Shown here in pieces: positions 4,027-64,000 of a stretch of DNA of 64,000 nucleotides. The first letter of the stretch is position 1, and every line of letters starts with the position of its first letter. Both the position numbers and the translations under genes were made by a program. The stretch lies in NCBI GenBank assembly GCA_946699065.1, contig CAMPDV010000020.1:1116001-1180000 (forward strand), given 5' to 3'. Origin of the DNA: Loxodes magnus (Eukaryota > Ciliophora > Karyorelictea > Loxodida > Loxodidae). The notes beneath the pieces were generated by a model, which saw only the letters and a list, made by a program, of their open reading frames with translations, was not told the DNA's origin and made no database searches.

Positions 4027-5485
4027 TGAATATTTATAAATAAAAAATTCCTTAAAACATATAAAATTATTTATTTTATAATCTTTTCTCTATCACTATA
4101 TCTCTATTTATCCAAATTGCTGCTATTCTCTTTTATACTATCAACAAAATATATATAAGCACTTTCCTTCACTATGTAGATAAACTCTTAAATTACTAGA
4201 TACAGCTGATCATAATATCTAGTATAAATGAAAATACTGCTAAGATGTTTTAGTATGCTTTTTATTTATTTTAGATTAATTAAAGTGTTAACTCTTTAAT
4301 TGCCAAGTGTATTATTTTTATTATTTGTCTATAATTTAATTCAGCTAAGTTTATTAAATACTTTAAGCCAATCTATCACTTATATATTTCACTCTAATTA
4401 TTCCATTTATTACTTGAAACTGCTATCATTATAAAACTATATCATTTTAATTTAGACTAAAGTCATAAATATATAGTCTAAAATATTAACAATAATTATT
4501 AGTTAAAAATGTAAAGTTATTAAAAAGTAAGTCTTATAGTTAAACCTAATAGCAATTGCATAATATCCTTTTATTATCTTCTCTTTAATATCTTCGTATG
4601 CTTACTCAGTCTAATAAACTAAATATTTGTATAATAATATTTATAATAGAATATTAACAATTTTTACCTTTAAATTAATTAAAGTATTTCTAGATATTCT
4701 TTCTCTCTTACTCATTTTATTTTACTTTATGTCATAAGTCTAAATTATAATACACTTTCCTTTCTCTTGAATTATACAAGTCAGATAACTTTAAATAAAG
4801 ACATCTATAACTTACTAGTAGATAGATCAAATACTATTAAATATTTAGAGTGTTTAAGAAGAATAGATATTTAAAATATAATGCTTTAAATAGACAAAGC
4901 TGAGCTAGTTAGTATATATTATAGTCAATTATTGCTTATCATTGTTAGTATGGATATATAAGCTATTTTATATTCCTGTGCTTTATTTTTATCTCAGTTA
5001 GTCGTATTTAATTAATACATTTTAAAAATAAGCCAATAGTTGATTGAACTAGACTTTGCTTACAATTAATGAAAAATAAATTAACAGTTTTGAAAACTAA
5101 ATGAGATATAACCAAAATTTATTATTTTACACTATCAATATTTAAATTTCTTTCTAGTAGTAAATTGCTATAAGATGCTTACCAGATTCCTTTATTTAAA
5201 TAATAGTACCTTAATTTAAATTTAATTATAGCCTAGTTTTATAACTAATTTATTTTACTTATTTATAAAGTTTGTACTAAGAATTGTTTTACCCGAAATC
5301 TTATTAAGCTAGTATCAAGGTAGAATATAATGCATAATATAAGTGATTTATTTTTGCTATTTATTATGAAAATTTGATTTGGATATCAATGAAGTTGCTA
5401 TCTTCAGTTATGAGTTAAAGCTAACGTCTAATAAATAAAAATGAAAGTTAAAGATGTTACAATATTTCTTCAAATTCTTCTATAT
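4027..5485. other. intergenic, very AT-rich
   Basis: No gene supported on either strand. The sequence is dominated by TAA, TTA and ATT words, and none of its TGA-free frames matches a family or shows coding base periodicity. It lies between the 5' end of DnaJ and the 3' end of the Cys-rich gene. Confidence 0.5.
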
Positions 5486-7877: not shown

Positions 7878-10800
7878 ATGCAATAGTGTAACTAAATAGC
7901 ATAAACAAGAGAAGATGTAGTAAATAATGAGTTGGTTTAACTTATTGAAATAGGATTGAATTAATATAAATAAACTGTTTAAAGCATGGATTAGACTTAT
8001 AAAGAAATAGAGGATTAAGTGTTAAATGAAATTTTTAAGAGAAAAGACAATTTTGAAATGACAGGTAGTCATTATTAATCAGCTCCTTTGTCCCCATCTA
8101 AATCACCTACATTTAATTTCGAACCAAGCTTCAAACTTACTCCAAATACTGAGTTTAGAATACGTTAAACTAGATTATCTAAACCTAAAAAGCTCTAGAA
8201 ATTAAATTCTGCTAAATCTAACGAGAAGCTGTTGTCTTCATAGCTATAAGAGATAAAAAATGATTTAAGCAGAAGGGATATTTCTTATAGATTAGACTAA
8301 TTATTTGGGAAGAGCAAAACAAAGTAATAGTAGCAAATAATATAGTAGCAAGATTTAAAATTTCTTTAGGATACACTTGGAGGAAAAACTAACCCCACAT
8401 TTAATCTGCCTAAAAGTTTGGAAGAGCTAATGGAAGATTATAAATCTTATCACTTACTAGAAATTTCTTAAGTGAAGCAAGTGCCAAAAGAATTCTTAAA
8501 ACCAGTTATTTAGTAGCTTCCTTAAAAGTTCTTACTAAACTACAACCCTTCAGGTCGTCTTGAAGTAACAGCTCTTTCTAATTGACTTGAAGAAATGCTT
8601 GCTCAACTACTTGTAAAGAAACAAAACCCAAGCGAAATTTTTTAAACAGCTTAGGTACTTTACTAAGTTACTATCCAAGAGCTAATTCGATAAATATCAA
8701 TAGAATGCATTCCAAGAGGATAACTTTTGCAAAGAATATGGAATGCATACTTCACCCTATTTTCATAATCAATAAAAACTTACGATTTGGAAAAATAAGT
8801 AATTCAAAAGCAAGATAATGAAAAGATTGAATAGTAAAGCATTATTAATATGATAGAACAAACAGAACTCAAAAGTCAAATTGAGAAACTCTAGGAACAA
8901 AACGCTAAATTGCTTTAAGACAAGTAAAAGCTAAAAGAGTAAATTAGCAATATGGCCCTTGCTACCCAAAAAGACAAAGAAAAAATAAAGGTTATTTAGA
9001 TTTAATATCAGAACCTTCAAGCAAAATTAATAATGCTTCTAGAAGATAAGCGTTTGCTATAAGCAAGGCTAGAAGGAGCTTAGATTGTTAACGAAGAAAA
9101 TAATAAACAAAAAGTACGTGGAAAGGTAAAAAAAAGATCAATTTCAAAAATTATAAAGTTTATGGAAGAAAATGATCCTTTATTAAAGGAAGAAAATTAA
9201 AATGAAGATTTACTTTAGTAAGTTGAAAAGTTCCAGGAAATTTAAAAGGAAGAATTAGATAGGCCTGATTTTGCTGAAAAAGAAACTAATACTGAAATTA
9301 GCTACTTTCATATGCAAGAGAAAGAAACTTTAACTTTGTTATAAGATTTTGTTTATTAAGTTTGCCAGGTTGAAAAAGAAGTTGCTGTAAAAAAGGAAGA
9401 AATCATTTAGACTTAATTAAAAAAAGAGGAAGAGAACAAAGAATAAAAGAAGAAAAAAAACAAAAAAAATTAGAATTTAGATACAGAAGAATCATAAGAA
9501 ATTTAAGAAAAGAAAGAAAAAAATAAAATCAAAGCTAAAGAAATATTTTCAAAAGAAAATGAAAAAGAGTAGCAAAAATCTGACCTGAATAAGATTCAGT
9601 TGCTTAAATTTATTAAAAAGTTACCTTCCAAAATTTAATTAAAAATAAATTAATTCTACCGACAGAGATCTAAATCCTTTTAATAAGATCCTAGTTAGTA
9701 AGTCGATCAAGATTACTCTTGAATCTATCAAATGGATAATAACTAATTGCAAAGTAAGTAGAAATACTTAGCTTACAATAGTCTTGTTCATTATAACTCT
9801 GAATTTGCAAATTCTTCAATGAATGAATTTCCAAAGCAAAATTCAACTATTTTTTAGGACTAATTCATCGTTCAACTAAAGGAAACTGCTTAATACGGAA
9901 CTGAAAATTATTTAAACGAAGTAGTGACTCAAGAATCTTAACAAAATCAAATGCGAACATTGAATGGGAACTAAATTCTTAAAAGTGGATAGCGTAAGTT
10001 AATAAAAAAGATAATGGATCATACAAAAAAATAACAGAATTTGGATATTTCTGATGAAAACTCTATTTTAATAGATGAAGAATTGTAAAGAAAGCAAACT
10101 TTTAATAATATAAGTATAATGTCCGGCTTCTAGAATAAAATTTGAACTTAAATAAAATCATTTTTAGGTAATTAACTAAATCCATGAATGGAAGAATAAT
10201 TCAATTAGATTCTAGCAAAAAAAATGAAGTTTAATTTACTTAATTTTTCTTAACTGTAATAGATACTTGAAGAAGAAATTGATCCATTACTTATTTAAAA
10301 TATTATAAATGATGAAAAATTGGATAAATCAGTTAAATCAGTGTTAGCGAATAAGTTCCTTGAAAGAATTTAGTAAGAAAAATAATTTGGATCAAAAGGT
10401 TTTAATTCATCAATGGGAAGAGATAAAACTATAAATTCTAGCTAAAATAATTTTACTGGATACACATCTGAGGATTATTCTGATGATGATACAAATAAAG
10501 GAGGAGATAAAAACTAAAAAAGAAGAAAGGGCAAGTAACACGATAAATTGATAACTAAAGAATTTATTTTTAACTAGAAAAAAGCTATCAAAAAACCTAA
10601 AATTCATCCTTCGTTTGCAATAATTCAAAAAATAAAAAGTAAAAATGTTAACAAAATTACATAATTCATGCCAAAGAAAATGCTCATATAGAATATTGCA
10701 AAACTACTATAAGAAAGAACTTAAATAGAAAAAGAAAATCCGAATATTAAAAATTAAGAGTTGTGTGAATTTGTGTATGATAGATTTAAAAATAAATTTG

Positions 10801-26641: not shown

Positions 26642-26884
26642 TATGGTTTAAAATGTTTTCTTAATAAAGGTAGCATAAGACTACTTTAAACTCTAACAAT
26701 AATTTTGAAATGATTTATTTTATCTCCTTAATTAAATATTTTAGCTTCTAAAATAGCAAAATTAAAGACTTAAGATTAACAGCATTTTAGAGGAAGGAAA
26801 TAGACTTAAATTATGTTCTATTTAGTAAATCATTTAGATCTAATTAAAATATTTATAAGTGCTTATATATCTTTCCTCTATAAT
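26642..26884. promoter_or_regulatory. short divergent intergenic region
   Basis: This 243-bp gap separates the start codons of the minus-strand tail-anchored gene and the plus-strand HROB-like gene, so it must hold both 5' flanks. It is AT-rich. I see no specific element and call it only from the gene layout. Confidence 0.35.
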
Positions 26885-27967
26885 ATGAATGATAAAAACT
26901 AACTACTCTTAAACAGATTGAACTCTACCAACTTAGATAAATCCCAAGCTTTCTATAGTCAGTTCTCAGGATCTACCTATACTGATTTAAGTTCTATAGA
27001 TTATGAATTAAATAAAGATCAAAGTATACTGAATACTAACATTCTGTCTGTTTAATAGAATAATTAGGGTCTAAAAGAACCATTACCCTTTGCATTTAAT
27101 AATTTAGTTCATTAGGATGCTTTTAACCATTTCAAAAAATCTCAGAGCATTCCTTTCAATTTTTGCGAAAAATTCACTAATTTTTAATTCGAAGCAAATA
27201 GAAATTAGCTGCAGATGCTTTAAAATCAATATGTCAATCAAAAAGCAACCTAGTTCTCTACGAATAATATGCAAATTTAAAACTAAAATCAAACTAATTA
27301 CTTATAGCAAATGGATCTAGGATTTAGTTAGAATAGCATGCCGTTCATTTAAGCTAATAATAAAGTAGAAGGGTTAAATTTCTATAATTAAATACCAAAA
27401 GGATAAAATGAAATAATCTCTGCTAATTAATATCAATAAGACTTTTAAGTAAACAAGGTGATATTAATGCCTTTAAAGCCTTTATAATGCTTTTAAATAA
27501 GTGAGAACTATAAAAATATATTATAGCAATATAACTTTTAAAGAGAACTATTAAGTCTAGAAAATCAATAATTAATACTTAGCTTATAAAATCAATTTCC
27601 CTTTAAGAACTCTAATATCGCCAATTTGCAAAAGAATAAAAAAAGTGGTTTGCTTATAATTTAGATTAGGGACTTTGAATCGATAAGAGAAATGTCTCTC
27701 ATAAACCCAAACTATTAAAAATTGTATACTCAAGATTCTACTAATAGTTAAGACCATGTAATCAGAATTATTAGTGACGTTACAGGAAGCTGCTTTGCTA
27801 GTTTCCATTCAAGTTGCTTTGAGAGATATTCTACAAACTTAGTTAAACCTGGAGTTGCAATAGTACTTTAAAAAGTTTTGGTAAGACAAATAAGTAACCA
27901 GAAAATAGTAGATATAGGAAGTAACAACATAATAAACATAAGCTATGAAAGTAAATAGTGCATATGA
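26885..27967 (+). CDS. HROB-like homologous-recombination OB-fold protein
   Basis: 360 aa, no intron, ending at TGA 27965-27967. The first two thirds are Asn/Gln-rich and disordered. The last third, residues about 250-350, fits an OB fold resembling the conserved domain of HROB (C17orf53/MCM8IP): a first strand (LLIIQIRDF), then ISDVTGSCFASFHSSCFERY, LVKPGVAIVLQKVLV and a closing strand IVDIGSNNIINIS. The pattern of D-x-TG followed by a strand, a short helix, a K/R-P-G turn and a V-L-x-K-V strand is the part I match. HROB recruits the MCM8-MCM9 helicase during recombination-associated DNA synthesis. The match is from memory of the family, so an unrelated OB protein is the alternative. Confidence 0.55.
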
Positions 27968-35278: not shown

Positions 35279-38200
35279 ATGTTATCTAACACCTTAATTG
35301 TCCTACTATTTTATCTAATTTATACTTCAGAATCTGATTATGAGAATATTTTTCTTAGTTAATTCATATAGCATGATATGGTATTAAATGAATAGATCTT
35401 AGTATTTTAAAGTTATTAATATAGGATTTATAAATAGTAAGTAATAGATTAAAGAGCAATACTTTATCTACTTTTTTATAGTTTTATTTGATATGTAAGT
35501 CTTTATCAATCTGCTTATTCTATTATTTCATTATTATACAAATAGTTTGCTACTTAGGGTTTTCTTATACCTTTAAATAATCCTAAATAAGCTTTAGCTA
35601 CTAATATTAGCATTCCTCTATCTTATTTCTTTTATTAACGAAGTTATAAAGCTCAGTATATCTAAATATTTTTATAATAAAGAACAATAAAAATATTAGT
35701 TTACGTATTATTGCTAGTTAAGGACATAAATAAGAACAAGTTTAGAAGCAAAGAGATTATGCAAATAGAATAGAAGACAAGCAAGCATAAATAGCTAGAA
35801 TATTAAGTGCTTATACCTATATATTAGAAATGTATTTTTATTAATAAACTCTACTAGATTAACTCTATTCCTCTTTATTTCAACACTCAATTTTACTATT
35901 ATTAATATATTTCTAGAGTATATAAGAGACTTATTAATTGAAGCGTTTTAAATATTTAGTGTTTACTATAAGAGTTAAATAATTGATGGCTGCTTAATTG
36001 AATAATAGGTATTAACTAGTGATTATTGAAGATATTTAGTATTATTTAATTTAGTCTGCTCCAAGTTGATTCTAATAATGATACTTATCACTACCAAAGT
36101 ATTAAATAACAAGCTAACTTAATTAGTATAAATAAAACAAGCTTAGACTCAAATTAGATAACCAACTGATATGTAGACTAACTTAAATATCATTATCATA
36201 AAACTAAATTCTAGCTTATACTTTATTATGATGAAAAAAGCAAGCATTTAGTTGCTTATAAGACTAGTAACCCTTCTTAGTCTTTGGACTCTTTAAATAG
36301 CAAATAAGTTGAATGATTGATAGTAATTATTAAATGAATTAGTAAAAAGTGCAGATAAAGAGTCATAAGCTTACATCTAGCATTTAATAATATCTTAACA
36401 CACCATACTTTTATATTCTAGATATTTACCAAAGGATTTAGTTTATTTCAAAGGATAGCATTATAAGCTTAAACTTTATATAAAAAATACTCTTTTATTT
36501 CCTAAAGAAATAAGTAATCTTTTATAAAGGTAGCATAATAATCGCTTTAAATGCTTTCTAGTTAATTTTAAAAAGGCAAATTAAGAATATATTTATATTA
36601 AATAATTTAATAAGAACTGAGGTCTAGATAGCAGTCCTAAATAATGTTATCCTTAAACTAAACTAAGAAGTAACAGAAATCCTAATAAATATTTATTTAG
36701 CAATTAAATTAAATTTATAGGTATTTTAGATCTTTATTAGCATTGTCTCAGCATCAATGTAAAAAAGCAGCTCTTTATCATAGTAAGATAGTTAAAGCTG
36801 CTAAATTAAAAAAAAGCAAAGTGCTTTCAAATCTGATATACTTAAAAACGTAAGATTTTATAGTGTACTTTACTCGAATTAATGAATTGAAATACTTTTA
36901 TATATAAATTTTTAAATAAATAAGAGAACATTCTGATAGAAGTATAGATGCAAAATAAGAATCATTTTCAATAAATAACCAAATATAGGATTACTAACTA
37001 ATGTTAACAAAAGCCTTTAATTAATTTTAAAAAGAACATTAAAGAATTTTATTTCCTAAGGTGATAAATAGCAAACTACCTGGAGATAAAAGTTTAGGAT
37101 AAATATAAATAAACGAAGAGTTTGATAGTATAATTACTCTATATAATTCTAATAATCTATTCATAATAAAATCTTAGTTAAATAATAATTTTATGTTACA
37201 TAGAAATCAAAAGAACTTAAGGATTTTAAGTAAAGATGATAAGATGATAGCTAAAATTACACCAAAATAGAGAGTAATCTGCTAGAATTAGATTATGATT
37301 AATATTATAAGCCTAGAATATCTAATTAAATAAGCTTAATAATAATTTTACTGAGTTATTATTAGCTTTAAATGAGAAGTATCATAATAAACTATTTTCC
37401 TAGCTTAAGAAATTAACTGTCTTTCTATTTTCTTTTATATTTCTTCAATTTGATTTAAAATTTTATTAAAGTCAAGCAATTAAAACCCTCAGAAAGAAAT
37501 CAAGCATTTCATCTTAGAATTAAAAGGAAAAATTTAATAGAAAGCATTTTAGAAAAAATCTATAAGTTCTTTAAATTATAAATGAGTAATAAAAATACTT
37601 ATTAGTAAGGATGCATTATTAAAGGTGTAGCAGAACTGATTAAGTGAATATACTCATCTAATATAAGTTTATACTTTTATTATTAAAGCATAGTGAGGTT
37701 AATTATATGCTATTATATCTTGCAAATTAAATAAATACAATTACCTTTTAAATTATTATATCAGTGTAATCTTGGAAATTTAATGCTTGAAGCTATTTGA
37801 TTTTAGCTTATTATATTAAAACTATCTAATTTGTCTAATTAAGTTTAGGTATATCATGCATATGCTTAAAGAGTAAGATTTCTATACATTTTCATCCTTT
37901 AATTTTAAAGTAGAAAATAATAGGAGTAACAAAACTAAATATGAAATAATAGAAAGTAGAAGATGAATTGAATGAGAAGAATATTTGCCAAATCATAAAT
38001 TTTAAATAAGTATAAATATATAATCTTTGAGTGAAAGTAATGATAATAGATTTAAATATAGAAACTAGATGCGTATGTAATATTAGTAAACATAATGTTT
38101 TTACATATTATCAAACTAGAAAAAATTTAAAAGTTAAGAGTAATCACAATCAATCGACTTGAAACGATGTAACTGTAACATTGTATTTGTACCAAAACTC

Positions 38201-38488
38201 GGGCGGTAATTAGCTTTGGAATTTGAAATACCATCTAACTTGATTTTACTTAAAATGCCTATTCATCTCCAAGGGAACGTAAATATCATTGAATCTACTT
38301 TACATCATTACTTGTTTAGCGATGTTTTAAAACTAACTCATTTTGTTAAAGCCCCTTTTATTCTAATTACCGACAACAACACTTTACTTAGTGGTGTTAG
38401 GATCTTTCTTTCTAGGTAAATTAATAATGAAGGAGTTATCGTACTGCTAATCCCTTATTTTAAAGTTATATACATTGTCTATTTTTGA
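35279..38488 (+). CDS. candidate long ORF with N-terminal hydrophobic segment; antisense overlap with dynein 3' end
   Basis: The frame starts MLSNTLIVLLFYLIYTSESD, a plausible signal peptide or membrane anchor, and continues for 1070 codons to TGA 38486-38488. G at codon position 1 is enriched in two stretches I counted (35279-35640 and 36062-36310), which include a folded-looking piece (NWYVDQLKYHYHKTKFQLI, then YYDEKSKHLVAYKTSN). Against it, TGA occurs at about the rate expected by chance, I saw no TGG, and base periodicity is weak at 36842-37250. The last 340 bp would be antisense to dynein coding sequence, so any real gene probably ends before 38150 or has introns I missed. Confidence 0.35.
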
Positions 38489-41400
38489 GTTCTATACTAT
38501 TTGCTTCTTCGGAGACTCTAGTGGATTTACTTCCGTATCTTAGGTATATGGATTGCATGAATTAGTAGAATCATGAGAAAACACTAAGTAAAACTCTGGC
38601 AAATCAGAATAAAGCATTATGCTCTCTTCTATCAAATCTTAATCAGAGTTAGAAACTAATTCACATATAGATTAGTCAAAATAGCCTGGTCCTTAGAATT
38701 TCAACCCACTAATAACCAAGTCTACTTACCTATTTTCATGAATTTAGTCTACTAGCCAAGAGTTTATTTGAACTTTCATAATAGGCACAAAATTCTTCAA
38801 AGAATAATACATCAAAAAACTCTGAAGACTTTCGTAAGGATTTTAGATCAGATTAAGCTATATCTTTAGATCTGAAGATATTAAGTTTTAATTGCAGGAG
38901 AAAGTTAGCAAGGCTTCAATCGTCTATTAGTTGGCCATATTATCATATAGTTAGAGTAAATACTTTCTCCTATTATGAAGTTGATGAATAAGAATATCTA
39001 ACTTGCTCGATAAATTCTACTTACTAAGAATTCTTTTATCAACACATAAGTTTTAAAGATTTTTCATGATTTGCTCCATTTCTAACGAATTGCTGCTTTT
39101 TATGCGTTTCTATATTTTTTTAATAACCTTATTGAACTATATCGATTCATTTACTATAAAAGTCTAATAAAACGAATATTTTTGGATTTATTTAGATTCA
39201 TTTTGGTTTTAGTTTTGGTTTTGGTTTTGGCTTTAGTTTGTAGTTATAGGAGATAATTCTTATAACTCTAAACTTTGATTTTACCTTTTTTTATTCCTTT
39301 GAATTTTAATTTTTTAAACTGATTAAGTTTCAGCTATCTTAGTTATTTCCTAGAAGTCATTCTACTTTATCTAAATGGAATTCTTAGATGCTTGCAAAAG
39401 GGTAAAGTGTTTCATGATATTAATTTTAGAAGGCAATTGACTTAATATGCTTTGAATAGCAGCTGGATATTTATTGAAGTTGGATATATTGAGGGATTCT
39501 GATTTATTTTCATTTGACTCATTTATTTCCTAAATCAGCTCTTATTCGTTTTAATTCTTAGTAAAGCTTTCCTCTGACGAACTTTTGCTTGAATTTTCCT
39601 TCTAATCTTCACTTTTCATTTCTTAATGAGGAGTATTTTTGTCATGATCCTTGTTTATCCATATAGCAGGATCTAGAAATTGAAGCAAATCTACCAGTTC
39701 CTTACTTTAAAGAAAATTCCTCTTTCTGTAGAGAAACATTGGAACAAACAAGGCTTCACTGATATCTATGTCTGTCTGATTTTTTATGCATTCTACTATT
39801 TAGCTCTGCTTAGCTGTTGTAGGGAAATAGTAGCTAAAGTAAAAAATATCATGCAAAGAATTTCCAAAGTTTAGCTTATACTCTATTTTGTTTGGCAGTT
39901 CTAAAATAAAAGTCTTGAAAATACTTTCTAAAGAAGTTTATACCAAAGTTTGCTAGTCAATGAAGAAAAAGGAACTGAATATTTACTCTGAACAGTTTAC
40001 TAATTTTTCAATTTGCATCTGATGCTTAGTAAGATAATCATTTATAACTTAGCAAAATATCTCTATATCCTATCCTTTTACTGAGTTACGCAAACCATTT
40101 TTAAATATCTGCAGCTCTTAGTAGTACTTCTCACTTATTCCAAAGTTTACTCTTACTGACTATAAAGCGAATAGCAAATTTATTCCAAACTTGAATTTAT
40201 TCATCAGTGCACTTATTGAAAAGGCATAGTTGAGCTTAATGGGGGAATTTCTGAATGAAACAGATTGTGGGTGTAATAAAGTTGAAATAGGTGATTCAAT
40301 TGAAGACTTTTTTGAGAATTTCTTAACAGTACTGATGTTTAAAAGAAACTTTCCTTAAGTAGCTTTAGTTTAAAGCTTAGAAGTTTCATTTACTGGCTAC
40401 ACAATTTTGTTTAACGATTATACTTCGGTTACTACCTTTTACTATTTCTAGCATTGAGATAAGCATCTTATAATATCGTCAATCCTTTCTTAATGAGACT
40501 TCTTTTAAAATAGAACTTTCTCAAAGTATTTGCTAAAATCTTATTTAAACTTCTATAAGCACTAAAAGTTGGCTTTCTTTAGGTATAATTCTTTCCACAT
40601 TCCTTCGTATGATGTTTATATCTCGTAATCTACTGCGCTCATTTGCTTCAGCACGCATTGCTTCATTGAATCTGGTTTTGAAAAGCACATAAGATGGCTT
40701 TCAGAAATAAATTCAAGTAGTAAAGGATCAAGCTCTATTTTCCATGAGCTAATCTAACAAGTAACCCATATCTTACCTCTTGATTTATTATTCAGCTTCA
40801 TTAGTTTTTCTCTTAGTAACTTAATAAACCCAGGGATTCTACTTTTTTCTAAAGTCTAGAGGTTATCTAAAATTAGTCATGATCCAGAAGAGATTAATTT
40901 ATCACAAATTTGGTGAATTAGCAAGAAACTAGCGTTTACACTTAATCTAAACAGTTTTTTATTCTTCTTTTGAGCTATTAAATCTATATGATTTACTGGG
41001 TATTAGTCCTCATATATGCAGATTGTTGCTAGATTCTACCAGTTTTCTTCAGAGTGCATTTCTACTAAAGGAATGGGAATACTGTTGTAATTTTTCCCAA
41101 GTATATATTCAAGGACATAAGGAATGTAAGATTCCACTAAATCACTTCTAAACAGATGTAAAGTTACGAGCTTCAAACCAGGATGTAAGTTTTTGAATGG
41201 GTCAGGAAAGGTAAAGTTAGAAGTGAAAACTTCTTAATTTAAAAACATTTTCCATGACTTTGAATCATTTTAAATGTTATTCTTAAAGTCATAGCTTTAT
41301 AGTTCAGGAATTATTTGCTACATTATTTGAACCTAGAACAAAAATTAATTTTTAGCCTAGTTAACGTTTTACTTAATGTTAACTAATTCTTGCTACGTGT

Positions 41401-44400
41401 CATAAATATTAAAGCTAGTTTTGGTTCTCTGTATTGCATTCTGCTAAATACTGGATTTTCTAGGGCTTATTATGTTTAGCACTGTATTCCTTCTTCTATA
41501 TGTTCTTTGTTCTGAAAAATTAAAACATCCAAAGCTAGCTTTTTTCTCTGTTTATAGATCATTCTATGTTTGAAAATGCTTTTGCGTAATTTCATCTGAC
41601 TCAAAGTTATAAAAGCTGAAGGGTGGAATTTCTTTGATTGTTTTGATGATTACTTCACACATATCGCTCTAACTTTGAATTTATTTGAAAGCAAAAACTA
41701 ATCCAAATAGCAGCTTTAGCTTCTTAGTCATTCCTGAAGAGATCCTATAATACATTCTGTACACTAAACTTTGCACAATCTAGTTTATCTTTTAGAAGCT
41801 TAATTGCTGCTTATTCCACCAAATATACTCTTCAATAACGCATCTTACTTTATTCCTAAAAGAGGAAAGAGCACTGGTATCATATTCTTAAAATGGAGAT
41901 AACTAAAGCATTGTTTAATAAAGTTTGAACAGCAAATTTAATATAGGAGAGTAATATTCTAAATAGTCCTTGAAGCTGCAAGGCTTATTGGAAATTTCCA
42001 CTTGACTTATTGATCTTAATTTAAATATTTCCAAATTAGAACAAGTAGCTTTTAGACCTTGAGAATTCTACTAACTGCTGTCATCAATTTAATCCTTAAA
42101 CTAAGTTATGAGAGCTAAAATCAAATCACTTGTTTGTAAAATTTCACTTTTGCTCATTGTAATAAACTTTGACTAGGAAATAGCCATTTAATGAAGCTGA
42201 TCGAATAGTTGTTTAAGCTCATCAGATTTGAAAAGAAGGTTTTCAGTTGCTAGTATGAATTTTAAGATAATTTTATCTTCTTTATTTTCTACTTTCTACT
42301 CACTATATCTAGACTTTATTATATCATATTCTGTGTCTAGAATTTCTCTATCAAAGATTTAAAGCATGGTTTCTACTAGTATTTAGTTCCATATTTATTA
42401 GTTATTAGAAGGATCTAAATTGAAGATAGTTAGGAGTTAGGATTAAGCAGTTGTTAGGTCTTTCTAATTCTTGCTGATAAGGAAAAGCTTAAAACTTTTA
42501 TGAATTTTGATTTTCTTATCCTGTAGAACAATTTCCTCTAGCTGAGCTTCGCCATTTTATTTTCTAATAATATTATGGTATCTAAACTTGAGTAAGGGTT
42601 CTATAGCTTTGAATAGAAGAGTATCAAACTGCTGTATAATGAGGATGTTTCCTAACAGAAGGCTTTGGTGAAGGTTTTCTTAGAACTTATCATCTATAGT
42701 AGTATTCTATAAAATGATTTTGAAGTTTCTATATTTATTAGCTAGATAATTTGTTACAAAGTCACCTGGATCTATTATATAAGGGAAACATAATTAGCAT
42801 TATGACACTAGTTTAAGTAGCAATATCAGTGTATGGATGTGTCCACAATCGTATATCCCAAAATATTGAGTCTTCAAGTTAAAATATTAAAGTTCATCTA
42901 ACAGTAGAAATGATTGGATACTCTCAAAAAGATCCATACCTATTTTAAATTGAGGGAAGGCATCAAAAAGCTTAGTTAGCAGATTTTATTAGCTTTAAAG
43001 ATCTAGTTAACAACCAAACTTTAAGAAAAAAGCGATAAAAATGTAGAATTTATTATCGTAATCGTATGTGCGATTTAATGCAATTTTTTATCATCTTTTC
43101 TTATAATTTAATATTTAGGGAATCATTAACTCAGCTTAAGCAAAAAGATTCGAAATGTGCTTCAAGTCATTTTAAACAGCATTAATCTACTATGAGCATT
43201 CTGATTTTACTTTTAAGCTTAACTCATATTTAAGTTATAGATCTTTGAATTTTTCGTCTCTTGCTTTCTAATATTATTGTCTAATTTCTTCTTCGCTGGT
43301 TTTTATTTTGGTTTCGTGCTAAATTTGTTGCTAATATCGTTGAAGTAAATTCATCAAGTTATTTAAATGTTTGATAAGTATTTGAATAATAAGGGGGGAT
43401 CTAGAAATAACAGCTTCTGGCTTCTCCGTAAAGAATTTTAGTTCTTTTTCAGTAATGTTTCATCTTTTGGCACTTACACGCTAAATTCTATCTAGGAAAT
43501 CATCGAAATCTTTAACTATATTTTCTAATTACTATTTAACATAAATATCCAATCTTTCTGTAGATTTGGGAGGAGGCTTTCCTAGTAGTCTTGGACAAAT
43601 AAAGGAAATTACTTAGGTGGTTAGCTCATCAAATTTATTAGATTTGTATAACTATTCGAACTAAAAATTAGAGCTTCTGATTTGAATTAGAGTTTCCTCG
43701 TATACCTTTTTGCCTTATAAAATATTGTCTTCTAGTTCTCTTCTTTATTCAACATAAGGAGCATAAAAGCTTTTTAAAAACTTGTCAGGTTCTTCTTCAA
43801 ATTCTTTAAGAGTTTACTAGTCTTTTTCGCATTCTTTGTTTAGTTACTTTAGTCTTTCTTATAACTGGCTAAGTTCTTTTTCTATTGAGATCTCTTTCTC
43901 TTTCTGGTTATGAATTTCCTTTTCAAGATTGGTAATTCTATTGAGAGCTTATAAATATAAGCTATTTTTAGACTCGTTGGATTATTTGAATCCTTCAATG
44001 AAAGTATTATAGAAGCAGATAAAATTAAAAGAGTTATCTTCAAACTAGAAGTCACTAAACTCTCTATAGATATTGAACATAACGTTGTACATGTCTTTTA
44101 TTTATTACTTTTGAGATTCCTCTTCTAAATGTTCAACATAAAAGTCTATTCCAATATCATGATTATCATACTCTCAATTTACGACTCGACTTCTTTAAAA
44201 AACGTTAGGGAAAGTTTAATATAGACTTTTGCAAAGTTCTTAAGATTCTAGGATGAGTACTATATGCAATTTTTCAGCAATTCTCCTCAAAAACAAGTAC
44301 ATCATTTGCTCTTGTCTAAATGACTCATAAATATCACTCTGAGATCTTAACTAAGTGATATATTCCTTTAGCTACTTTTGAGTTATCAAAAAATTAGGTC

Positions 44401-47400
44401 TTCCACCACTTATAATGTTATTAATTTCTTAGAGAACTTAGAGAATGAAAGATTCCTAATCCATATTAAAGAGATGTATATTGGACAGGTTTATAAACAG
44501 CACACTATTGCACTCTCGTATTACAATCTACTCAAATACATTATTCAGCTCCTATTTAGTCTGTTCATTCTAAATGTCACTGCTTAAATAGTTAAGATTT
44601 ATCCCAACATAGCTCAAATCAATGGCAGAACAGCAAGCTTTTATTAGTTACTTGCAAGTGTTTTATCTGGTTTTGGAAATAACAATTAAATGCTAGTTAG
44701 GAGTTTATAAATCTAGAATAAAGGACAGGAACTACTTAATCAAAGTAGAGGTAGAGCAATTCAAATGCTTAGGGAATAAAGAGTTCTGCTCAACGAACTT
44801 TTTATAGACTTCTTCTAAATTAAATGAATCTAATAATTGAACATCTGGTTCATACTATGGCATCTTTATTTCTTATACATCAGCCGTTATAATGCCGTAG
44901 TCAAACAATATGTGATTGACTACTTCTTTATTACTTTCTGCTTCGCTTATTTCTGATGCGGAAGATTCCAATTCTACGATTTCGTTGATCTCTTTCTCAA
45001 AGTCGCGCCAAATTCCTGACAACTAATCCAATTTTGAGTTTCAAACTTCCTTTTATAATTTTAAGAAACTATTATCAGATTCTTGAATTGCCTCTGCTTT
45101 AGGAGTCCAATCATCTAAAAATTTCTTGCAAATACTTCCAAAGAATTTAGAAATATCAGTAGTTTGTAAATCTCCTCAATCAATCAAATTTAACTGCTGA
45201 AGCATGGAGATGTATTTGTTAATATCCAAGGGGAACTGATACAATTCTATCTTTGAATTCACTTTAATGATGGACCTAACGCTTTTATAATGGCTACTTA
45301 TTTTAGTTAATTTTTGGATAAGAGCATCATAAAGTTCGTCTTCTTATTCTAGTTCATTTAAAACTTCCACGTATCCTTTAAATATCTAGAACAAATTATC
45401 TTCACTCTATACCTCAACGCTATAGTTAAAAAAGTGCCTTCACAATGACTTTGAATATTTGAGATTTCTGGATGTAGCACACCATTAGATATCTTAAAAC
45501 AGTAGAAATTTAGATAGGGATAGGTTATATCATCCTCGAAATTCACATCACTAGTTTACTATTTCAGTGGCACAGTCATTTAAATGTACATCCTCAAGAA
45601 GTATATAAGCTAAACTTCCTTAGCAAGGTCCATAAATATCAATATTTTAACGTTCAAAGCTAGATTCTATGATAGATTATAGACACTCAAGGGAAGTATG
45701 CTTGTTTAAGTAAATTTGAATTAGATCATAGTTTTCATCTTGTATTTTAGATCTGAAGAAATTCTAAAAGGTGAGAGATTTGCAGCTTTATGGCCCTACA
45801 AGCTAAATACTTTCATTTTAGTTTACTATTTATTATGAAAAATAGTGTGCCTTTGTTGAAATTAAAGTAGGAATATAAATGAATTTTATATCCTTAAGCA
45901 AAGGTGGATTATACTAAATAGCTTCACTTGCTTATTAGGTAATTTATTGAACAGTTGATTATTTGTATCCTATATTGGAACGAAGCTTTGGAGGCATTTT
46001 TTAATCCTTAACGATATTTTAAAGTGCTCCTTTGATGAAAAACTTGCTTATTATGGAAGCTTACATTTCTTGCTGAATGCTTTTATTCTAAATTTCTAAT
46101 TATTTATCAATCAAAACTTGTCAAGGTTTCCATGAGTTCTTTTCTATATCAAAATAGTGTGTCAAAATGTCTCCTCCTTTAATCTCAATTATGCTTTTTG
46201 CAAACTCACTTATTTTCTTTAAGTGAATTTCCTTAGCGCTATTAATAATACCTTATGCTATGCTTGAAATGCAAATTTCTTTTACAAAGTCCAATAAACT
46301 TTGATTATCATTGAAAGGAGAAATAATAGAATTTTTTTTCTGGAACTAAGAAAACATAAAGAGTGCCTAATCAATATTTTTGATGGTAGCTCTAACACTA
46401 GAAGGATCGTAAATTAGTTTTAAAGTTCCTCTATTATATCTTTACTATTCTTGGTTTATACTTTAGTTTAAGTATAAATTCTAAGATTTTTCTCCCACTA
46501 TAAGAGACTACTATCCAAAAGTCGATTTGCATGATTAGCTTTCATAGAAGATTTTTTGGTGCTGAGTTGGAGAGATAAGGGAGTTCTAGAATTTTCGAAT
46601 CTAACTAACTTCAAAATTTTTATTAAGCTAAGGAGTGAACAAATATTTCTGCTAAATGCTTTCTATTCTAGTAATTTGCTCCATATGGCTCTAGCAGCCA
46701 ACTTTTATTAAAATAATGATGTTTTTGATGGTTTCTTGCAAATCCATTTCCTTTTTGATGAAGTTATTATCTTCTATATACTTCCATAAGGGTTCGAAGT
46801 AAGTCTAAAAGCAGTTTGCTATTATACTCTTTGCTTGATGTAGCTAAGTTGGTAGCTTTTGCATTTATTTTTAGAGAATTACTTTTGAATCGTATTCTTG
46901 CTTAATTGAGCAAACACCAACCCGATCCAAAAAGGCAGGACTTAAATCTTTAAGGCTTTCAACTTCAAAAATAAATTTTGAATTTCCCTTAATTAACTGC
47001 TTAGTTCCATTACTCAATATAAGCTGCTAGCTATCAAGTATAGTAATTAATGTATCAAGCCATGGATCATATTTTTGAAATAAAAACCAATCATTATAGG
47101 ATATAAAAGTGTCAGAAACAAGCTTAATCTCTTCGTGTATGTCTTAAATATCTTCTACACTAAAGGAGCAGCTTCATAGATATTCACGCCATCCTCTTAG
47201 CATAGAATCACTTTAATCAGAAGATTTACTGCTCGGTCGTTCTTCTTCTCCTCATTTTTCTAAATAATCAATGTATGAATTATTTATCTAAAGCAAAATG
47301 TTAGAGATACCAGATTGCAAATCTTGCCCCATAATGGAAGAGCCTAATTTAGAAAAGATAACATGAACATTAAAATTCTCAACATAAACTATATTGCACA

Positions 47401-50400
47401 TGTATTTCGCTACTGCTTTTATTAAAGAAGTCTTTCCACAACCAGTAGGACCTATGACACAAATTGGTAGTTTAGAATTTTTCAAGAATTTAACTAAAAG
47501 ACTAGCTTTCTCTATGATTTAGTCAGTTGCTTCTAGCTTCATCTAAGAAAAGATTTTAAATATCTAAATCTTAATTTATTTATACCATGTCAATTTGTCT
47601 ATATATTATTTCTAGAAAACGCTACTTATTATTGAGTCTAATGATTGGATTTCCAAATCAGAGATTTTAGGAATGATAAGTCTTCTTATAATATTGGCAA
47701 CTAATTGCTCATCATCCTCTATTTAAAAATTAGACTTATCGATAGTCTTTTGAATTTATTGCAAAATCATATTAATAAATCTGCTTATTGATCCTATGTT
47801 TAGAGTACTTTTTATTTCCTTTATGGTTTTATCATTTTTGATATCTTGGTTTAGAAATAGAACTTAGAAGTTATTCTGCAGTATTTTTAAGCAGGTAATA
47901 ATTTTAGTTGAAACCTGCTCTGGGTTGGAAAGACCTAAGCAAATAAGTTAATTCCTCAGAATTACTTCAATGTTTGGTTAAAGAAATCCTATCTCTCTGA
48001 ACTTGAAAGCTAAGTTAGTTTTAATTTTATTGCTTTTTTTGGCTGTTATGAAAATATTGCACTAGTTTACCTTATGTAAGGTTTCTCCTACATATACCAT
48101 TCCTTTACCTTAATCCGAAACTAAAGCAGAATGAAGCATAAAGATAGTTTAGCTTAGTATGCTAGTCATTTAAGCGCCTAAATTTTCAACATTATCAAAC
48201 AAAAACCAGTAATTTCCACTTATTACAAACTATAGCAGTCTTTAAAACAATGAATAGTCTGGCTAAATCCTACAGTCCCATATTGATAGTTATTTCCCGC
48301 AAAATATTGCACAAGCTTCTATAGAAGAAGTTTTTCCTTCATTTCCATATAAGAAAAGCCCCACATGATTCCTAAAAGCAACTAAGGTATTGAATAATAT
48401 TTTTTCAGTTTGGTAAGTCATACATTTTACCTGACTGTCTTAGGGTAAAAATTCAAAGCCATAATTAATCTTGTAGAATAGACATTGACATACTATATCA
48501 AAAATATCAAATTTTTAAAAAGGAATTTCATTAAATTTCACTCCAAAAAACTAAGAAATTTTTTCATCTTCTTCACATTTTACATTATCAGATTCAAAGC
48601 ATATCTTTAGCTTAGGCAATATTTAATACTTGAAGCTATCTAAGCTAATGTTTTTATCTTCCATAAAAGAGTTAACTATGTCTAAATTCCATAGACAAAG
48701 CGTTATTCATTACTAATACATATTCCTATTAAAAACTAAGTCTTCCTATTTGCATTTTTTGTATTTTAGTTCATTTTGTTTCCAAAATCTTCTTTAGCAT
48801 AAGCTGATCATTTCCTAAATCATTTATTATAAGTTAGCCTTTAGTATAACAAAAGACTAGTTTTCTTTGTAGATTTAATAGTTGTAGACTATATATTCTA
48901 GATCTTAGAAGAATCTAATTTAATGAGCGATGAAATGAGGTTAAAAGTTGTGAACTGCTAATGAGATATCTTAATACTAATCCTGTGAAACTCAGCTTTT
49001 TAAAATTGATCGGATATAGTTTTTCAAAGTTTTTTTCTATTCTTTGATCAGTTTTTCCAAAATTACCTCTTTAGTGCAATAATCTCCTATTTCGTTTAAA
49101 AGTCTAATTTATTTACTGAGAGCCATTTCATTTACATAACTAATCTAATTATGTCGAACTATAATACTTTAAAAGCCTGGAAATACTTCTTTAACTGGCC
49201 ATAGATGAGAATCAGGTCTATGTAGAAAGAATAGAAATAGTAACTCATTGGAAAATAAATAGAGCTCAATGCATTTTTCTCTCTTTTTATCCAAAAATAT
49301 ATTCAATTCTTTTTTCAGCTTTTCTGCTAGCAGGTTATTTTCTTCCAAATTTTTAAGAGCAGTAATTTTAAATTCCTGGATATAGGTTTTATCAATTTTA
49401 GGGTTTTACTTGGTAGTTTAAATATTTTTATAATAGCTACGTATAACTTCTTTGAACTAGTAATAGAAATTTCCTTTTTAGTTGTTGAAGTTGTTCATAA
49501 TACTCTTAAAACTGCCATGGAAGTTATCCCAAAGAGCTAATTAATCAATCTCTAGTTGCTATCTAATTGCAATAAGACTAAAAAAGGGAAAGAGCTAAAG
49601 TCAAGTTTCTTACATCTTTAGAGTTTCTTAAATTATCATTTTGATTATTTTTACGTTTATGTAGAGGAAATTCACTTTATTTTTAAGTCTTCTCACGTAT
49701 CTCGTATTCTACAGCATGCTTTTAATATTCACTTTGTATTCTTAAAAGATATTTGTCAAATAAACTCCATTTTTCATTATGAAGCAACCCAATTCTTAGT
49801 CATACTCATCCATGTCGATTGATAAATTTTCTAAAGATTTCCTTATTTGTTAAGCTGCCCAGTCAATCTTTTGCTCGTGTTAAGCTATAATAGCTATATA
49901 ATCTATGAAAGCTAGGTGCTATAGAATTGTCTACTTCTAAATTAATTTGTCTAAAGTGATTTCCTCAAACTCAGACTTATTGCTTTCATCTTCATCAGAG
50001 TATTCCTCTTCATAAGAAGACTCTTATTCAATGATATTTTAAGTCTTACTTTAACTTTTCTATAATTCACTTGAATTCTGTTCCTTTGGTAGAGTACCGC
50101 TTTAGCTATTGTCTAAGTTCTAGTGTTCTTTTGCTAAAGTTAGAGCTAATACTTCACTTTCTTCAATCTTTTTAAATATTTTTTTTCAGTGATAAGGCTT
50201 TATTGCATCGTTTCTTAGTTTAAGTATTATCGGCAAGAACTTTTCGAAATTGTTTAGCTATTGCCTGTAATAAGTAAGTACACTAGATATTTATGTCACC
50301 CTCATAAACTAATCATCTAGATCATTTAGTAGATTATAACCAAACGCTATACTAGCTGAAACTTCCTCTGGCACTATTTGATAAAATGGCTAAGATTTCC

Positions 50401-53400
50401 ATTTTTCCAAAGACTTCCCCCAATTATCAGCAAATGACCATAAATCATAATATTTCTAAAAATCAGCCTCTAGATTATTTAGATTAGTGAAATCAGTTTG
50501 CTTAAATCCTAGTAACTGTTCTTACCTATTGTATAAAGTAGCTCTTTCTTTAAAGCTTATAAGTTCTTAAATAATTCCACCAGCTTCTGCAGCATAAAGA
50601 CTTGGATGCGAAACATCAATAAAGCTTTCAAATTATTAGATATCAATTTCTTTCTAGGAAATTTCCTGCTTTAAGTTGGATATTTAGCTTTTCACTTGCT
50701 TGGTGTAGAAAGGAGCTAGTTATTAAAGTCTATCGAAGCTATGCTACCTAACCTTATATAGGATGGTTTCCCATTTATAGATGCAAAATATATCAAATAC
50801 TTTCTCCACTTTATACTGAAATTCTTCGAATATACTGAAAATATGTTGGCAGTCGTTTAGATCTTCCTTTATGATTGCAAAATCTTCTATATCCTTGTCT
50901 TAAGAGATATATTCTTTCAACTCTACAAACTGCTCTATATCATCTTAAGGCTCAGTTTCTAACTTCCTAATAATGTATTTATACTTCTCTTCGCTCTCTT
51001 TAAGAACAAAGTCAAGTACATCTTTAATAGAATCAAGTATTGTTAAGATTAAATTTTCAGCTTATGAGTCTAAGTCCTTCTTAATCATAGAAAGGTCAAT
51101 TTGAAACATTCCAATAGATATCTAATTAGGAATATGCTTGCGAACAAACATTTAATCCTGCTTTATTATTTTCATTTCCTAGCATAACCCTTTGTAGTCT
51201 GCTTAATGGTATTAAAATAGCCTTTCTATTAGGTTTTCTTTTTAATATTCTAGGATATAGTCAAAGGATCTTATAATTGTAATAAGGGAATATAGAGGCT
51301 AAAAATTCTGGATTAAAAGTGTATCTATTTCTTCTAAAAACTAAGTAAATTAACTTTTCGCATTGCAGACACTAAATTTATTTTGCTATTACTAAGGAAT
51401 ATCAAGTTCATCTACCGAACCGATTAGAATTTCTAAAGGAGTTAAGCTAATTTTTTTAAGATTCTATAGTTTTTTGAGAGGTTCCTTTATAAGCTCTTTA
51501 AATTCGAATTCTATTTAGCTTAATTCTGGAACAAAAATAACTTTCGCATCTTTCTCATCTTAAAAATGCTTATAAATGTCTTTAGTTACGTTTTTATATT
51601 TAAGCTCTTCATTTTCCTTTTATTTGGGCTATTAAAAACTTTCTTAAAATTCTTGCTTTTCAGATTCTTTATTTATTTCTTTTCTATCAAACAAGTTCTT
51701 TGACAATGATCCATTTAATTTAGACTATTTTCTACTTAGCAAGATTTCGCTTCTTTATGGTTTGTGCTTAACTCTTTAGTTATCTTCTTCTATTTTCTCA
51801 GAAGCCTGATCTTTCTTGTTCTTTTGGTCAGATTTAATTTTTTCTTGCTTATTAATGAAATGTTAAATATGTCTATCAAACTATTTAACTTCCTTGATTT
51901 GTTCTATAATTAGTTTTTAACTTATATCTTGAGTAGCTTATTTCTATTACTCACTATAATAATAGTCTTCCTTTAATTTATCATTGCTTTATTCTCATTC
52001 TGGCTATTGGAATCTTTTAGTTTCTTTTTTGCTCATTATTTTTCTAAAGGAAATAACTCTAACAGAATCTCCATTGGAATTTCGACTGTGTCTTTCTTCC
52101 AAAGCTAATTGCTTAACCTTTTCAGCGTTAGTTTTATATAAGTCTACTAAATACGTTACCTTCCTTATTTTCTATAAGTAAAAGTTCCATTTTAGCTTTT
52201 CCTTTTTTTGCTTCTATATATGTCATTTACTCAAAATTTATACTTAAATCAAGGGAGTCGTTACATTATTTTGAGGGTCTAGCTCACTTCAGATTCCTGC
52301 TTCTCCACTTAAAATATTATCAAACATTTCTTTAGTGTTAGCAAGAAGCTATTTATATATATTGTCTTCAAAGTCTGCAAATATTAATGGAGGATCATGC
52401 TAAACAAACAGCTTAGTCTTCTGTTTAGTTCTTCTCATCGCTTGCTGATCGGTTAGATTTAAAGGCTCGAATAGCGGAAGCTGCCAGTGATATTTAAGAA
52501 TGTTATTTTTGAGCCTTTATACAGAGTTTTGAATGTTGATCATAAGTAAATTATCTATAAAAATATTGCAAATCTTCATTAATCGCTTATACCTGTTGTA
52601 TACTAATTCTGCATTACTATTTTGAATCTCTATCTTCAAATACTTATCTATTGTCACTTAAATGCGCTTTATTATCAAAGCTATTTGCTAAATTTACTTT
52701 TTAAAGCCAGCTTTTACTGATAGAATGAATCCCGCTAATAGTTGAATCTTTTTATCTACAAGTAAGTCATCTAGCACTTAGTATAGATATTGGTTTAGTA
52801 ATTCTTGTTAAGCAAGGAGAATAGGAAGTAGAGTTCTGCATTGCAAGTCTTCTTTCATTATGAAACTTTTCTCAAAAGAGCTTATGTTTATTCTATATTT
52901 TTCATTGGTAAACCACTTTCCATAATTAATTTCTTCTCTGATTTGCTATCTACGGAAAAGTTCTAAGTTCTTCCTTTCTAAATTAGAAACAGCTTCATTA
53001 TCTCTTGCTTTACTAGAGTCGAAATAGAATTTATAAGAGTTTAGTATGTAATGCTCTTTAGCTTCTTGACTAAGCTACTCCATCATTTTTGAATTGTCAG
53101 TATAATAGTTTCCTATTTTAAATTTTATGTTTAAAAATCGCTTTTCTGGAATGGATATTTCTCGTGTATCGTTTTCTATTGCTAGCTGCATTCTACCAGC
53201 AAATCTTATTTAGCCTACTATGCTCTCTCTTCTTGTATTAGCCTCTTTCCATCTTTCTTCAATTTCCTTTTTATTTTCTTCAATAAACATTAAATTTAAT
53301 CTGCTGACGTATTTCTAGTTGTTGTTATTATCTCATTGGATTAGATATCTTTTAGTGGAATAGTTATAACTCAGAATCGTACATTTTTATCACTCCATTT

Positions 53401-54070
53401 TTCCATCTGTAAAGTACCATCTTGAATATCCCTTCTGTGGTCCATTAGACAATAATTGAAGAGTCTAAGGTGAGTCTGGCTGAGGATCGAATAATTCTAG
53501 AGGAAAGAATTATGATTTTCCAAGCTAATTTTAAGATAGATTTTCGCAAGTTTTTTGCTTATCTTTTTATTCTACTTTTAAAGTTTATTGATTAGTAAAC
53601 GTTATTGGGGTAGACTTTAACTTGAAATTTCTTTAGTTTTAAACAAGTAACTGCAAAGCTTTCTTGTCTCCTTTTAAAGTTCCCTATCTAGAAGCTGCAA
53701 TTAGAGGTCTTAATTTTGATTGGTTAGTTTTAACTTTTGCTGACAAGTTTTATGACCTCTATTCCTTGCTTTTTGTAAGTCTTCCACTTGGGGTTTCACC
53801 TCTATCCGTTATAAATGGCTTTTCTAAAGTCATACAGCGTTTCTAAGATTAAAAAGTCGTAAAATCTCGAGTAGTCATAGGGATTTCTTAATCTAATGTT
53901 CTGTCAGTGTAAATTATCTATGAAGATGTCTTTTGCTCAACTAAATTTTTCGGTATTTTCTAAACTTACTTATAGCCAAAGCGTTCGTTAAGATACTATT
54001 CGTTCATTTAAAAAACTTCGAAGTCTTTAAGCTTTTCAAATCCTTAAAGTTCTCTTGATTTGAAATCCAT
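38150..54070 (-). CDS. highly divergent dynein heavy chain with degenerate AAA1, AAA3 and AAA4 nucleotide sites
   Basis: A 5306-aa product in one frame: the ATG (54070), all four P-loop positions and the TGA (38150-38152) share it, so no intron is required. Near residue 215 lies a small barrel-like module (RWYFTDGKMEW, later YVSRLNLMF). The dynein signature YGFEFL precedes AAA1, whose P-loop is reduced to YGNEGKTSS (48323-48346) and Walker B to WFLFDNVENL. AAA2 is intact, GPTGCGKTSL (47429-47452). AAA3 reads LVGPQSCKSLT (45773-45796) and AAA4 reads ISKTRQNTCKQ (44648-44680), both without a working P-loop. The stalk follows, with a recognisable microtubule-binding region (CPRLLGKPPP, about 43350-43610), then AAA5/6 and the C-terminal domain. 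A DNHD1-type or non-motor axonemal heavy chain is likely. Confidence 0.85.
39201..39236. repeat. TTTTGG-type microsatellite coding Gln-Asn repeats
   Basis: About six imperfect 6-bp units (TTTTGG, with TTTTAG variants) inside the divergent dynein gene. In the dynein frame on the minus strand they read as alternating Gln-Asn, a flexible linker near residue 4945 before the C-terminal domain. Other frames would give Lys-Pro or Lys-Thr, but only Gln-Asn agrees with the frame of the flanking sequence and the stop. Confidence 0.7.

Positions 54071-55367: not shown

Positions 55368-64000
<8,633 letters not shown>

Follow-up and report, generated by a model that had tools for sequence, protein, structure and literature searches.

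Dynein heavy chains of the ciliate Loxodes magnus that have probably lost the motor ATPase and may be kept as static parts

ATP at the AAA1 module of the dynein ring drives microtubule release and the swing of the linker (PMC7215579, PMC12338079), AAA2 of known dyneins is described as holding ATP that is not hydrolysed (PMC12338079), and apo dynein binds microtubules tightly with its linker straight (PMC7215579, PMC12338079). The single-headed inner-arm chains include DNAH1, DNAH7 and IDAa (PMC10266980), and DHC2 is placed within a single-headed group (PMC2239267). DNHD1 is an orphan dynein heavy chain gene that has been called a 'ghost gene' (PMC8754002), and its variants have been linked to malformed sperm flagella (PMC9916431). 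In kinesin-14, the Kar3 partners Cik1 and Vik1 carry a non-catalytic motor-type head described as a microtubule 'foothold' (PMC4338441). Here, we describe P0001, a pseudo-motor dynein heavy chain encoded in a stretch of 64,000 nucleotides from the karyorelict ciliate Loxodes magnus (contig CAMPDV010000020.1, positions 1,116,001 to 1,180,000; hereafter the window), together with its relatives in the same genome.

P0001 resembles the single-headed inner-arm chains (DNAH1/IDAd and IDAa-type) in its tail and linker, its N-terminal module and the order AAA1 to AAA6. Unlike them, it has lost the AAA1, AAA3 and AAA4 sites, and its stalk tip and C-terminal domain are unrecognisable. Cik1 and Vik1 likewise have a motor-type head without catalysis, but they are kinesins and form a heterodimer with an active head. 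DNHD1 is one animal gene, whereas ten or more genes make up the family in the single genome studied here; the two are likened by published description and not by sequence, and DNHD1 had no row among the PDB matches listed. A full-text literature search, with most subscription journals outside its reach, turned up no description of ATPase-dead dyneins as a family of several genes. Judging from the sequences, we consider it probable that P0001 belongs to a family of ATPase-dead dyneins that came from single-headed inner-arm dyneins and has been retained for static docking or cross-linking.

The gene, from which the other genes below are distinguished by their contigs (C35 and so on), is as follows.
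38150..54070, minus strand: pseudo-motor dynein heavy chain P0001, 5306 amino acids, TGA stop included; recognised by code 27 translation, frame statistics and a full-length paralogue at 60% identity

The window was translated with NCBI table 27, the karyorelict code, in which an internal TGA is Trp and the terminal TGA is the stop. The same code is used in the L. magnus macronuclear assembly, which has 706 Mbp and coding sequence of 33.5% GC (PMC11441545). P0001 forms a single frame of 5,306 codons plus TGA, read from 54070 to 38150, and all six motifs quoted in an earlier, sequence-only reading of this DNA were found in it (YGFEFL from residue 1870, GNEGKTSS from 1909, WFLFDNVENL from 1955, GPTGCGKT from 2207, GPQSCKSL from 2759 and ISKTRQNTCKQ from 3131). 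Gln is encoded by TAA or TAG 354 times and by CAA or CAG 165 times. The frame contains 22 TGA (21 internal and the stop), whereas the two alternative frames of the same strand have 84 and 213, and 200 shuffles have a mean of 101 and a minimum of 70; the frame is not due to chance, and TGA is avoided within it. The codon usage of P0001 correlated with that of the neighbouring canonical dynein at 0.97, compared with 0.78 and 0.91 for the other two frames of that gene. Eight of the 21 internal TGA occupy dynein Trp positions (residues 227, 246, 1295, 1490, 2847, 3299, 3660 and 4398), and the canonical neighbour likewise has TGA at such positions, for example in WFTEWP and FGALGWN. The placement of TGA at dynein Trp positions shows that it encodes Trp and that a single protein extends from residue 227 to at least residue 4398. 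The open 15.9-kb frame had been taken as an argument against a pseudogene. The avoidance of TGA upholds that argument, but bare openness needs caution, since in code 27 both TAA and TAG specify an amino acid and TGA may do so.

The following parts of P0001 were placed by similarity.
53171..53458, minus strand: N-terminal module, residues 205-300, common to IDAa-type heavy chains; found by phmmer, 83% identity with paralogue C35
49010..50482, minus strand: DHC_N2 region of the tail/linker, residues 1197-1687; Pfam DHC_N2 1.7e-34, PDB matches headed by DNAH1
47591..48469, minus strand: AAA1 module, residues 1868-2160; Pfam AAA_6 9.3e-24, 46.1 bits, 0/500 shuffles
45296..45886, minus strand: AAA3 module, residues 2729-2925, Walker A changed to GPQSCKS; Pfam AAA_7 3.2e-18, 58.3 bits, 0/500 shuffles
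43361..43645, minus strand: stalk-tip position, residues 3476-3570, the best-conserved region versus C35 (87%); dynein microtubule-binding domain not recognisable
42239..42808, minus strand: AAA5 module, residues 3755-3944; 17.8 bits, 0/500 shuffles
40643..41155, minus strand: AAA6 module, residues 4306-4476; 12.5 bits, 0/500 shuffles

Pfam places DHC_N2 of the linker/tail before AAA1 (1.7e-34 and 9.3e-24), which is the dynein heavy chain order; it gave no dynein-like domain past AAA3 in P0001, AAA4 to AAA6 lying under its detection. In addition, residues 2950-5306 had no phmmer match in PDB at E up to 10. Module profiles were built from canonical dynein rows and the neighbour, with 500 shuffles of each module's own region as the control. 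The profiles of AAA1 to AAA6 scored 46.1, 27.9, 58.3, 15.6, 17.8 and 12.5 bits, each above all 500 shuffles, thus supporting a six-module ring. Note that a search of whole pieces with the place not given did not lift AAA5 (0.3 bits) or AAA6 (4.4 bits) above the controls, so that their support comes from the place-restricted shuffle test and not from the whole-piece search. The dynein order that had been claimed from the letters therefore stands for the linker and AAA1 to AAA6, but not for a stalk with a microtubule-binding region or for a C-terminal domain. By eye, the stalk base and the KPP motif are the only parts of the stalk that can be aligned with canonical dyneins. In an end-anchored test, the last 60 residues stood out only weakly: scores as high came from 45 of 2000 shuffles and from 39 of 750 60-mers taken elsewhere in P0001. 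P0001 has 5306 amino acids versus 3960-4511 in the compared PDB dynein chains.

The tail indicates the dynein class. DNAH1 was the best PDB match of the linker/tail (E 1.2e-28), and the search at E up to 10 returned 20 rows, namely 18 dynein and 2 Mediator rows (E about 0.2). Seven of the 18 dynein rows have informative names (DNAH1, DNAH7, DHC2 and IDAa), all of single-headed types, and none of the 18 carries an outer-arm, two-headed or cytoplasmic name; a separate PDB search gave the same picture. The N-terminal module matched 8glv_JG (3.5e-10), 9e5c_6a (3.7e-6) and, weakly, 9y6s_6k 'IDAa heavy chain' (0.054) in phmmer; of these three IDAa-type chains, 9y6s_6k is the only one named IDAa. In the host genome, the module was matched by nine of the ten family members (all but C73) and by eight canonical dyneins.

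We next compared the nucleotide sites of P0001 with those of canonical chains.
48323..48346, minus strand: degenerate AAA1 Walker A GNEGKTSS, residues 1909-1916, two residues short; by alignment to canonical GPAGTGKT
48179..48208, minus strand: degenerate AAA1 Walker B WFLFDNVENL, residues 1955-1964, catalytic Glu changed to Asn; by alignment to canonical dyneins
47429..47452, minus strand: intact AAA2 Walker A GPTGCGKT, residues 2207-2214; among the best-conserved 25-residue windows between paralogues
44648..44680, minus strand: lost AAA4 Walker A position ISKTRQNTCKQ, residues 3131-3141; by alignment, AAA4 profile 15.6 bits, 0/500 shuffles

In these alignments, the AAA1 Walker A GPAGTGKT becomes YG--NEGKT, the Walker B FDEF becomes FDNV, and sensor I TMNPGYAGR becomes TAKKS----N with loss of the Asn. 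Walker A is GPQ-SCKS at AAA3, and GVGGSGRQS is replaced by ISKTRQNTCKQ at AAA4, confirming by alignment that the P-loops of AAA1, AAA3 and AAA4 are degenerate, as had been read from the letters. The motifs of an active motor are thus missing at AAA1, where Walker A GxxxxGK[ST] is absent and the Asp-Glu of Walker B is Asp-Asn, and the sequence is strong support for AAA1 having lost its catalysis. The AAA2 P-loop, said to be the one that is kept, is intact at Walker A, but at Walker B the Asp is Gln. AAA2 SPATVSRCGM is SPAFLDRVGV in P0001, and the Arg of this 'SRxG' motif, an arginine finger, is retained. Among the invariant columns of four canonical rows, P0001 kept 143 of 526 (27%), including 8 of 17 Trp and 0 of 23 Val. 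By descent and ring anatomy P0001 is a dynein heavy chain, and by motif it is not an active motor.

Two other explanations of these sites were rejected. Missed introns or sequencing errors do not hide canonical P-loops: the AAA1 and AAA3 loops are below consensus length, the gaps at AAA4 are of 1-3 residues, and paralogue C35 has the same losses. A read-through intron is unlikely because it would add residues, yet the AAA1 and AAA3 loops are short. A swap of AAA1 and AAA2, with GPTGCGKT as the true AAA1 loop, was ruled out by profile alignment and by its distance from YGFEFL.

The host genome (705,730,643 bases in 7,843 contigs) was then searched for related genes. Pfam AAA_6 gave 42 matches, 28 of them above 400 bits and others weak, and the family was collected from the weak matches and further protein searches. 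Ten genes, a lower bound, were obtained: P0001 (C20), C35, C147, C175, C73, C9, C4, C38, C59 and C74. The finding thus exceeds the first description of the locus by these genes and by the adjoining canonical dynein. P0001 and five paralogues were read in one frame at full or near-full length, and C4, C38, C59 and C74 in AAA1-AAA3 only. Four pairs stand out, P0001/C35 (60% identity over 5,268 aligned residues), C147/C175 (57.4%, 5,387), C4/C38 (59.4%, 1,089) and C59/C74 (57.1%, 1,133), and identity across groups in the AAA1-AAA3 region is 17-35%. None of the ten has GxxxxGK[ST] at the AAA1 Walker A, which is two residues short in P0001, C35, C147 and C175. The AAA1 catalytic Glu is absent from all ten (Asn in eight, Ser in one, Asp in one), and the Walker B Asp is present in two. 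GxxxxGK[ST] occurs at AAA2 in six of the ten, at AAA3 in one (C73) and at AAA4 in none of the six examined. As a control read by eye, GPAGTGKT and [FL]DE were present in all 28 strong AAA1 domains of the same genome, TMNP in 27, and the strict FDE plus TMNP pattern in 24. No relatives were found in a viral contig collection, queried from the neighbour and P0001, or in a genome contig collection.

Some further dynein copies were left out of the family. On C382, two opposed dynein AAA1-AAA2 stretches lie about 33 kb apart, near 108 kb (minus strand) and 142 kb (plus strand), with frames that soon close; they are closer to the canonical neighbour than to P0001. Three dynein heavy chain copies on C19, near 848, 898 and 930 kb, have matches that switch among all three frames, through frameshifts, introns or the two together, and two of them share an identical-score match. 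The C19 copies were tried and rejected as a decay control, as their frame jumps are of 1-11 nucleotides but also of 23-59 nucleotides, which short introns can explain.

Selection was assessed from Nei-Gojobori counts of nonsynonymous (pN) and synonymous (pS) differences under table 27. The values of pN, pS and pN/pS were 0.237, 0.787 and 0.301 for P0001/C35; 0.256, 0.838 and 0.305 for C147/C175; 0.23, 0.821 and 0.28 for C4/C38; and 0.249, 0.79 and 0.316 for C59/C74. Because silent sites are saturated, the true ratio should be below pN/pS, and with all four pairs at 0.28-0.32 the genes are therefore under constraint. The members of a pair thus have the loss of catalysis in common, and constraint followed it. 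The check for relaxed selection found none, with frames intact. The claim of the sequence-only reading that P0001 is no working motor and yet no decaying pseudogene is thereby supported and gains strength, since the full-length paralogue C35, 60% identical, shows these losses too and pN/pS is 0.301 and 0.305 in the two full-length pairs.

Conservation was then compared by region. The top 60-residue windows of P0001/C35 have identities of 0.90 (residue 3481, the stalk-tip position) and 0.87 (residue 241, the N-terminal module); by domain, the stalk tip has 0.87 and the N-terminal module 0.83, against 0.60 overall. In C147/C175, the N-terminal module (0.78) and AAA1 (0.74) are well conserved. 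The window around the AAA2 Walker A is at the 96th-100th conservation percentile in five of six pair comparisons and at the 68th in C147/C175, and that around the AAA1 Walker A ranges from the 31st to the 94th across the six. Stalk-tip identity across subfamilies is 14-32%.

We also asked whether the family has one origin or several. In the AAA1-AAA3 region, the blastp scores of P0001 were 1515 bits with C35, 627 with C147, 587 with C175, 204 with C73 and 145 with C9, compared with 80 for the canonical neighbour. C59, C74, C4 and C38 scored 89, 68, 47 and 38 bits. Their pair partners aside, C4 and C38 match C73 best (138 and 126 bits versus 48 and 60 for the neighbour), and C59 and C74 match C9 best (194 and 206 bits versus 36 and 43). 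The six full-length members group together in a tree of AAA1 with support 100 and a stem of 4.1, although long-branch attraction could produce such a grouping. The ten are thus joined by a chain of similarities; a single origin of the six is likely, and its extension to C4, C38, C59 and C74 is only probable. As a separate observation, the four pairs are nearly equally divergent (57-60% identity, pN/pS 0.28-0.32), as if from one duplication epoch; k-mer peaks of L. magnus have been said to suggest some genome duplication or paralogy (PMC11441545).

How might such proteins act? A ring that can neither bind nor hydrolyse ATP at AAA1 would be held in one state; P0001 would have no cycle of release and power stroke and would stay fixed in an apo-like form, perhaps stabilised by a nucleotide that AAA2 never releases. 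The tail, with its conserved N-terminal module, would dock at an inner-arm-like site, and ring and stalk would form a passive strut or tether, its tip bound to a subfamily-specific partner. Such a static strut or tether would be the simplest role, because the docking tail is conserved and, in P0001/C35, the stalk tip is strongly conserved. A broader proposal, which we put forward tentatively and at somewhat less than even confidence, is that karyorelicts carry an ancient and diversified dynein family in which ATP hydrolysis ceased once, in a shared ancestor, or on very few occasions, after which the family branched into ten or more genes, each kept for a passive strut. These would share a docking tail and a rigid ring, with the stalk tip retuned for each partner; in six members the AAA2 of this ring has a standard Walker A, and in the other four none of AAA1 to AAA3 has one. 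Since AAA2 too lacks the standard motif in those four, it is doubtful that their AAA1-AAA3 bind nucleotide even structurally.

Several observations weigh against the reading of P0001 as one of a family of ATPase-dead static parts. C4, C38, C59 and C74 are about as distant from P0001 as the neighbour is (38-89 versus 80 bits) and are tied to the family only via C73 and C9. The P0001 branch, at 3.5-5.1 substitutions per site versus 0.27-0.80 for canonical chains, indicates very fast evolution. The stalk region with the microtubule-binding domain did not stand out by profile (2.5 bits, 15 of 500 shuffles as high), and neither did the region after AAA6 (-0.1 bits, 63 of 500). The suggestion that P0001 binds microtubules thus failed to find support, the stalk tip being unrecognisable as a dynein microtubule-binding domain, and in C147/C175 the stalk tip is unremarkable (0.67, 59th percentile). 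Regarding the nucleotide sites, conservation between members is fairly high in the window around the AAA1 Walker B (73rd-96th percentile), C147 and C175 retain the sensor I Asn, and the AAA2 Walker B of P0001 has Gln in place of Asp. The AAA2 Walker A is degenerate in four of the ten, so that nucleotide binding there is not a family-wide rule. The axonemal site, finally, is suggested by tail homology only.

Some of these features would suit a divergent working motor that hydrolyses ATP at an unusual AAA1 or at AAA2: P0001 and C35 retain G-K-T and the Walker B Asp at AAA1, six members have an intact AAA2 Walker A, the AAA2 'SRxG' Arg is present in three of six members shown (P0001, C35 and C147), and the sensor I Asn remains in C147 and C175. 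Such a motor is nevertheless very unlikely, as the catalytic Glu is missing from all ten members and the Walker B Asp from eight, the AAA1 Walker A is without consensus in all ten and two residues short in four, and AAA2 of known dyneins is described as not hydrolysing ATP (PMC12338079). Even less credible is a decaying pseudogene, or a 'ghost gene' on the point of being lost, that only seems intact. The very long branch of P0001, the 143 of 526 invariant residues kept and the description of animal DNHD1 as a ghost gene (PMC8754002) would fit decay, but the 15.9-kb frame is single and open with TGA avoided, the dynein matches from about residue 212 to 4476 all lie in that frame, pN/pS is about 0.3 in four paralogue pairs with saturated silent sites, and there are ten genes of this kind.

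A more serious alternative, though still an unlikely one, is an ATPase-dead dynein that works elsewhere than in the axoneme, such as at basal bodies or on the cortical microtubule ribbons, which it might cross-link. Karyorelicts have extensive cortical microtubule ribbons, and the strong divergence of stalk tips between subfamilies (14-32% identity) would fit several partners; on the other hand, the tail retains an axonemal IDAa-type N-terminal module and similarity to inner-arm linkers. On balance, we favour static parts at an inner-arm-like site.

The adjoining gene in the window is an intact dynein.
55368..64000, minus strand: canonical single-headed-type dynein heavy chain, running off the window edge; AAA1 motifs and FDE intact; recognised by Pfam, frames and PDB matches

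This gene lies on the strand of P0001, about 1.3 kb upstream of it, and matches Pfam AAA_6 (3.2e-122), AAA_9 (1.5e-70) and MT (8e-52). It has all AAA1 catalytic motifs intact, whereas P0001 has not. The N-terminal module seen in P0001 is also present outside the window, some 4 kb upstream of the neighbour's AAA1, and the neighbour is the best canonical match in the genome to that module (48.6 bits). The motor of P0001 is 18-22% identical to every canonical row, and the neighbour (about 20%) is no closer than the others. A possible tandem duplication from the neighbour is favoured by the N-terminal module only, the motor being equidistant from all canonical rows. In AAA3 of the neighbour, at about 61299-61325 (minus strand), part of the GPPGGGRN stretch after Walker B is absent, unlike in other canonical rows.

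Elsewhere in the window, an open reading frame at 7878-9722 (plus strand), about 28 kb from the pseudo-motor gene, matches Pfam Ax_dynein_light (1.3e-11; p28/DNALI1 type), a type of light chain that belongs to single-headed inner-arm dyneins (PMC2239267). A DnaJ protein with zinc-finger and C-terminal domains is encoded at 3157-4026 (minus strand), and 26813-27967 (plus strand) has a weak HROB-like match under the curated cut-off.

Dynein is understood via the AAA1 ATPase, and the conservation of a family that lacks this activity would mean that selection can maintain the whole ring, linker and stalk purely for their structure. If true, the largest known motor would have given rise to a family of pseudoenzymes, and these would supply ten natural experiments on AAA2 function and a testable parallel to the debate on DNHD1 as a 'ghost gene'. 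The family members would also be candidates for passive connections within cilia or the ciliate cortex, suggesting that dyneins may be reused as fixed parts instead of motors.

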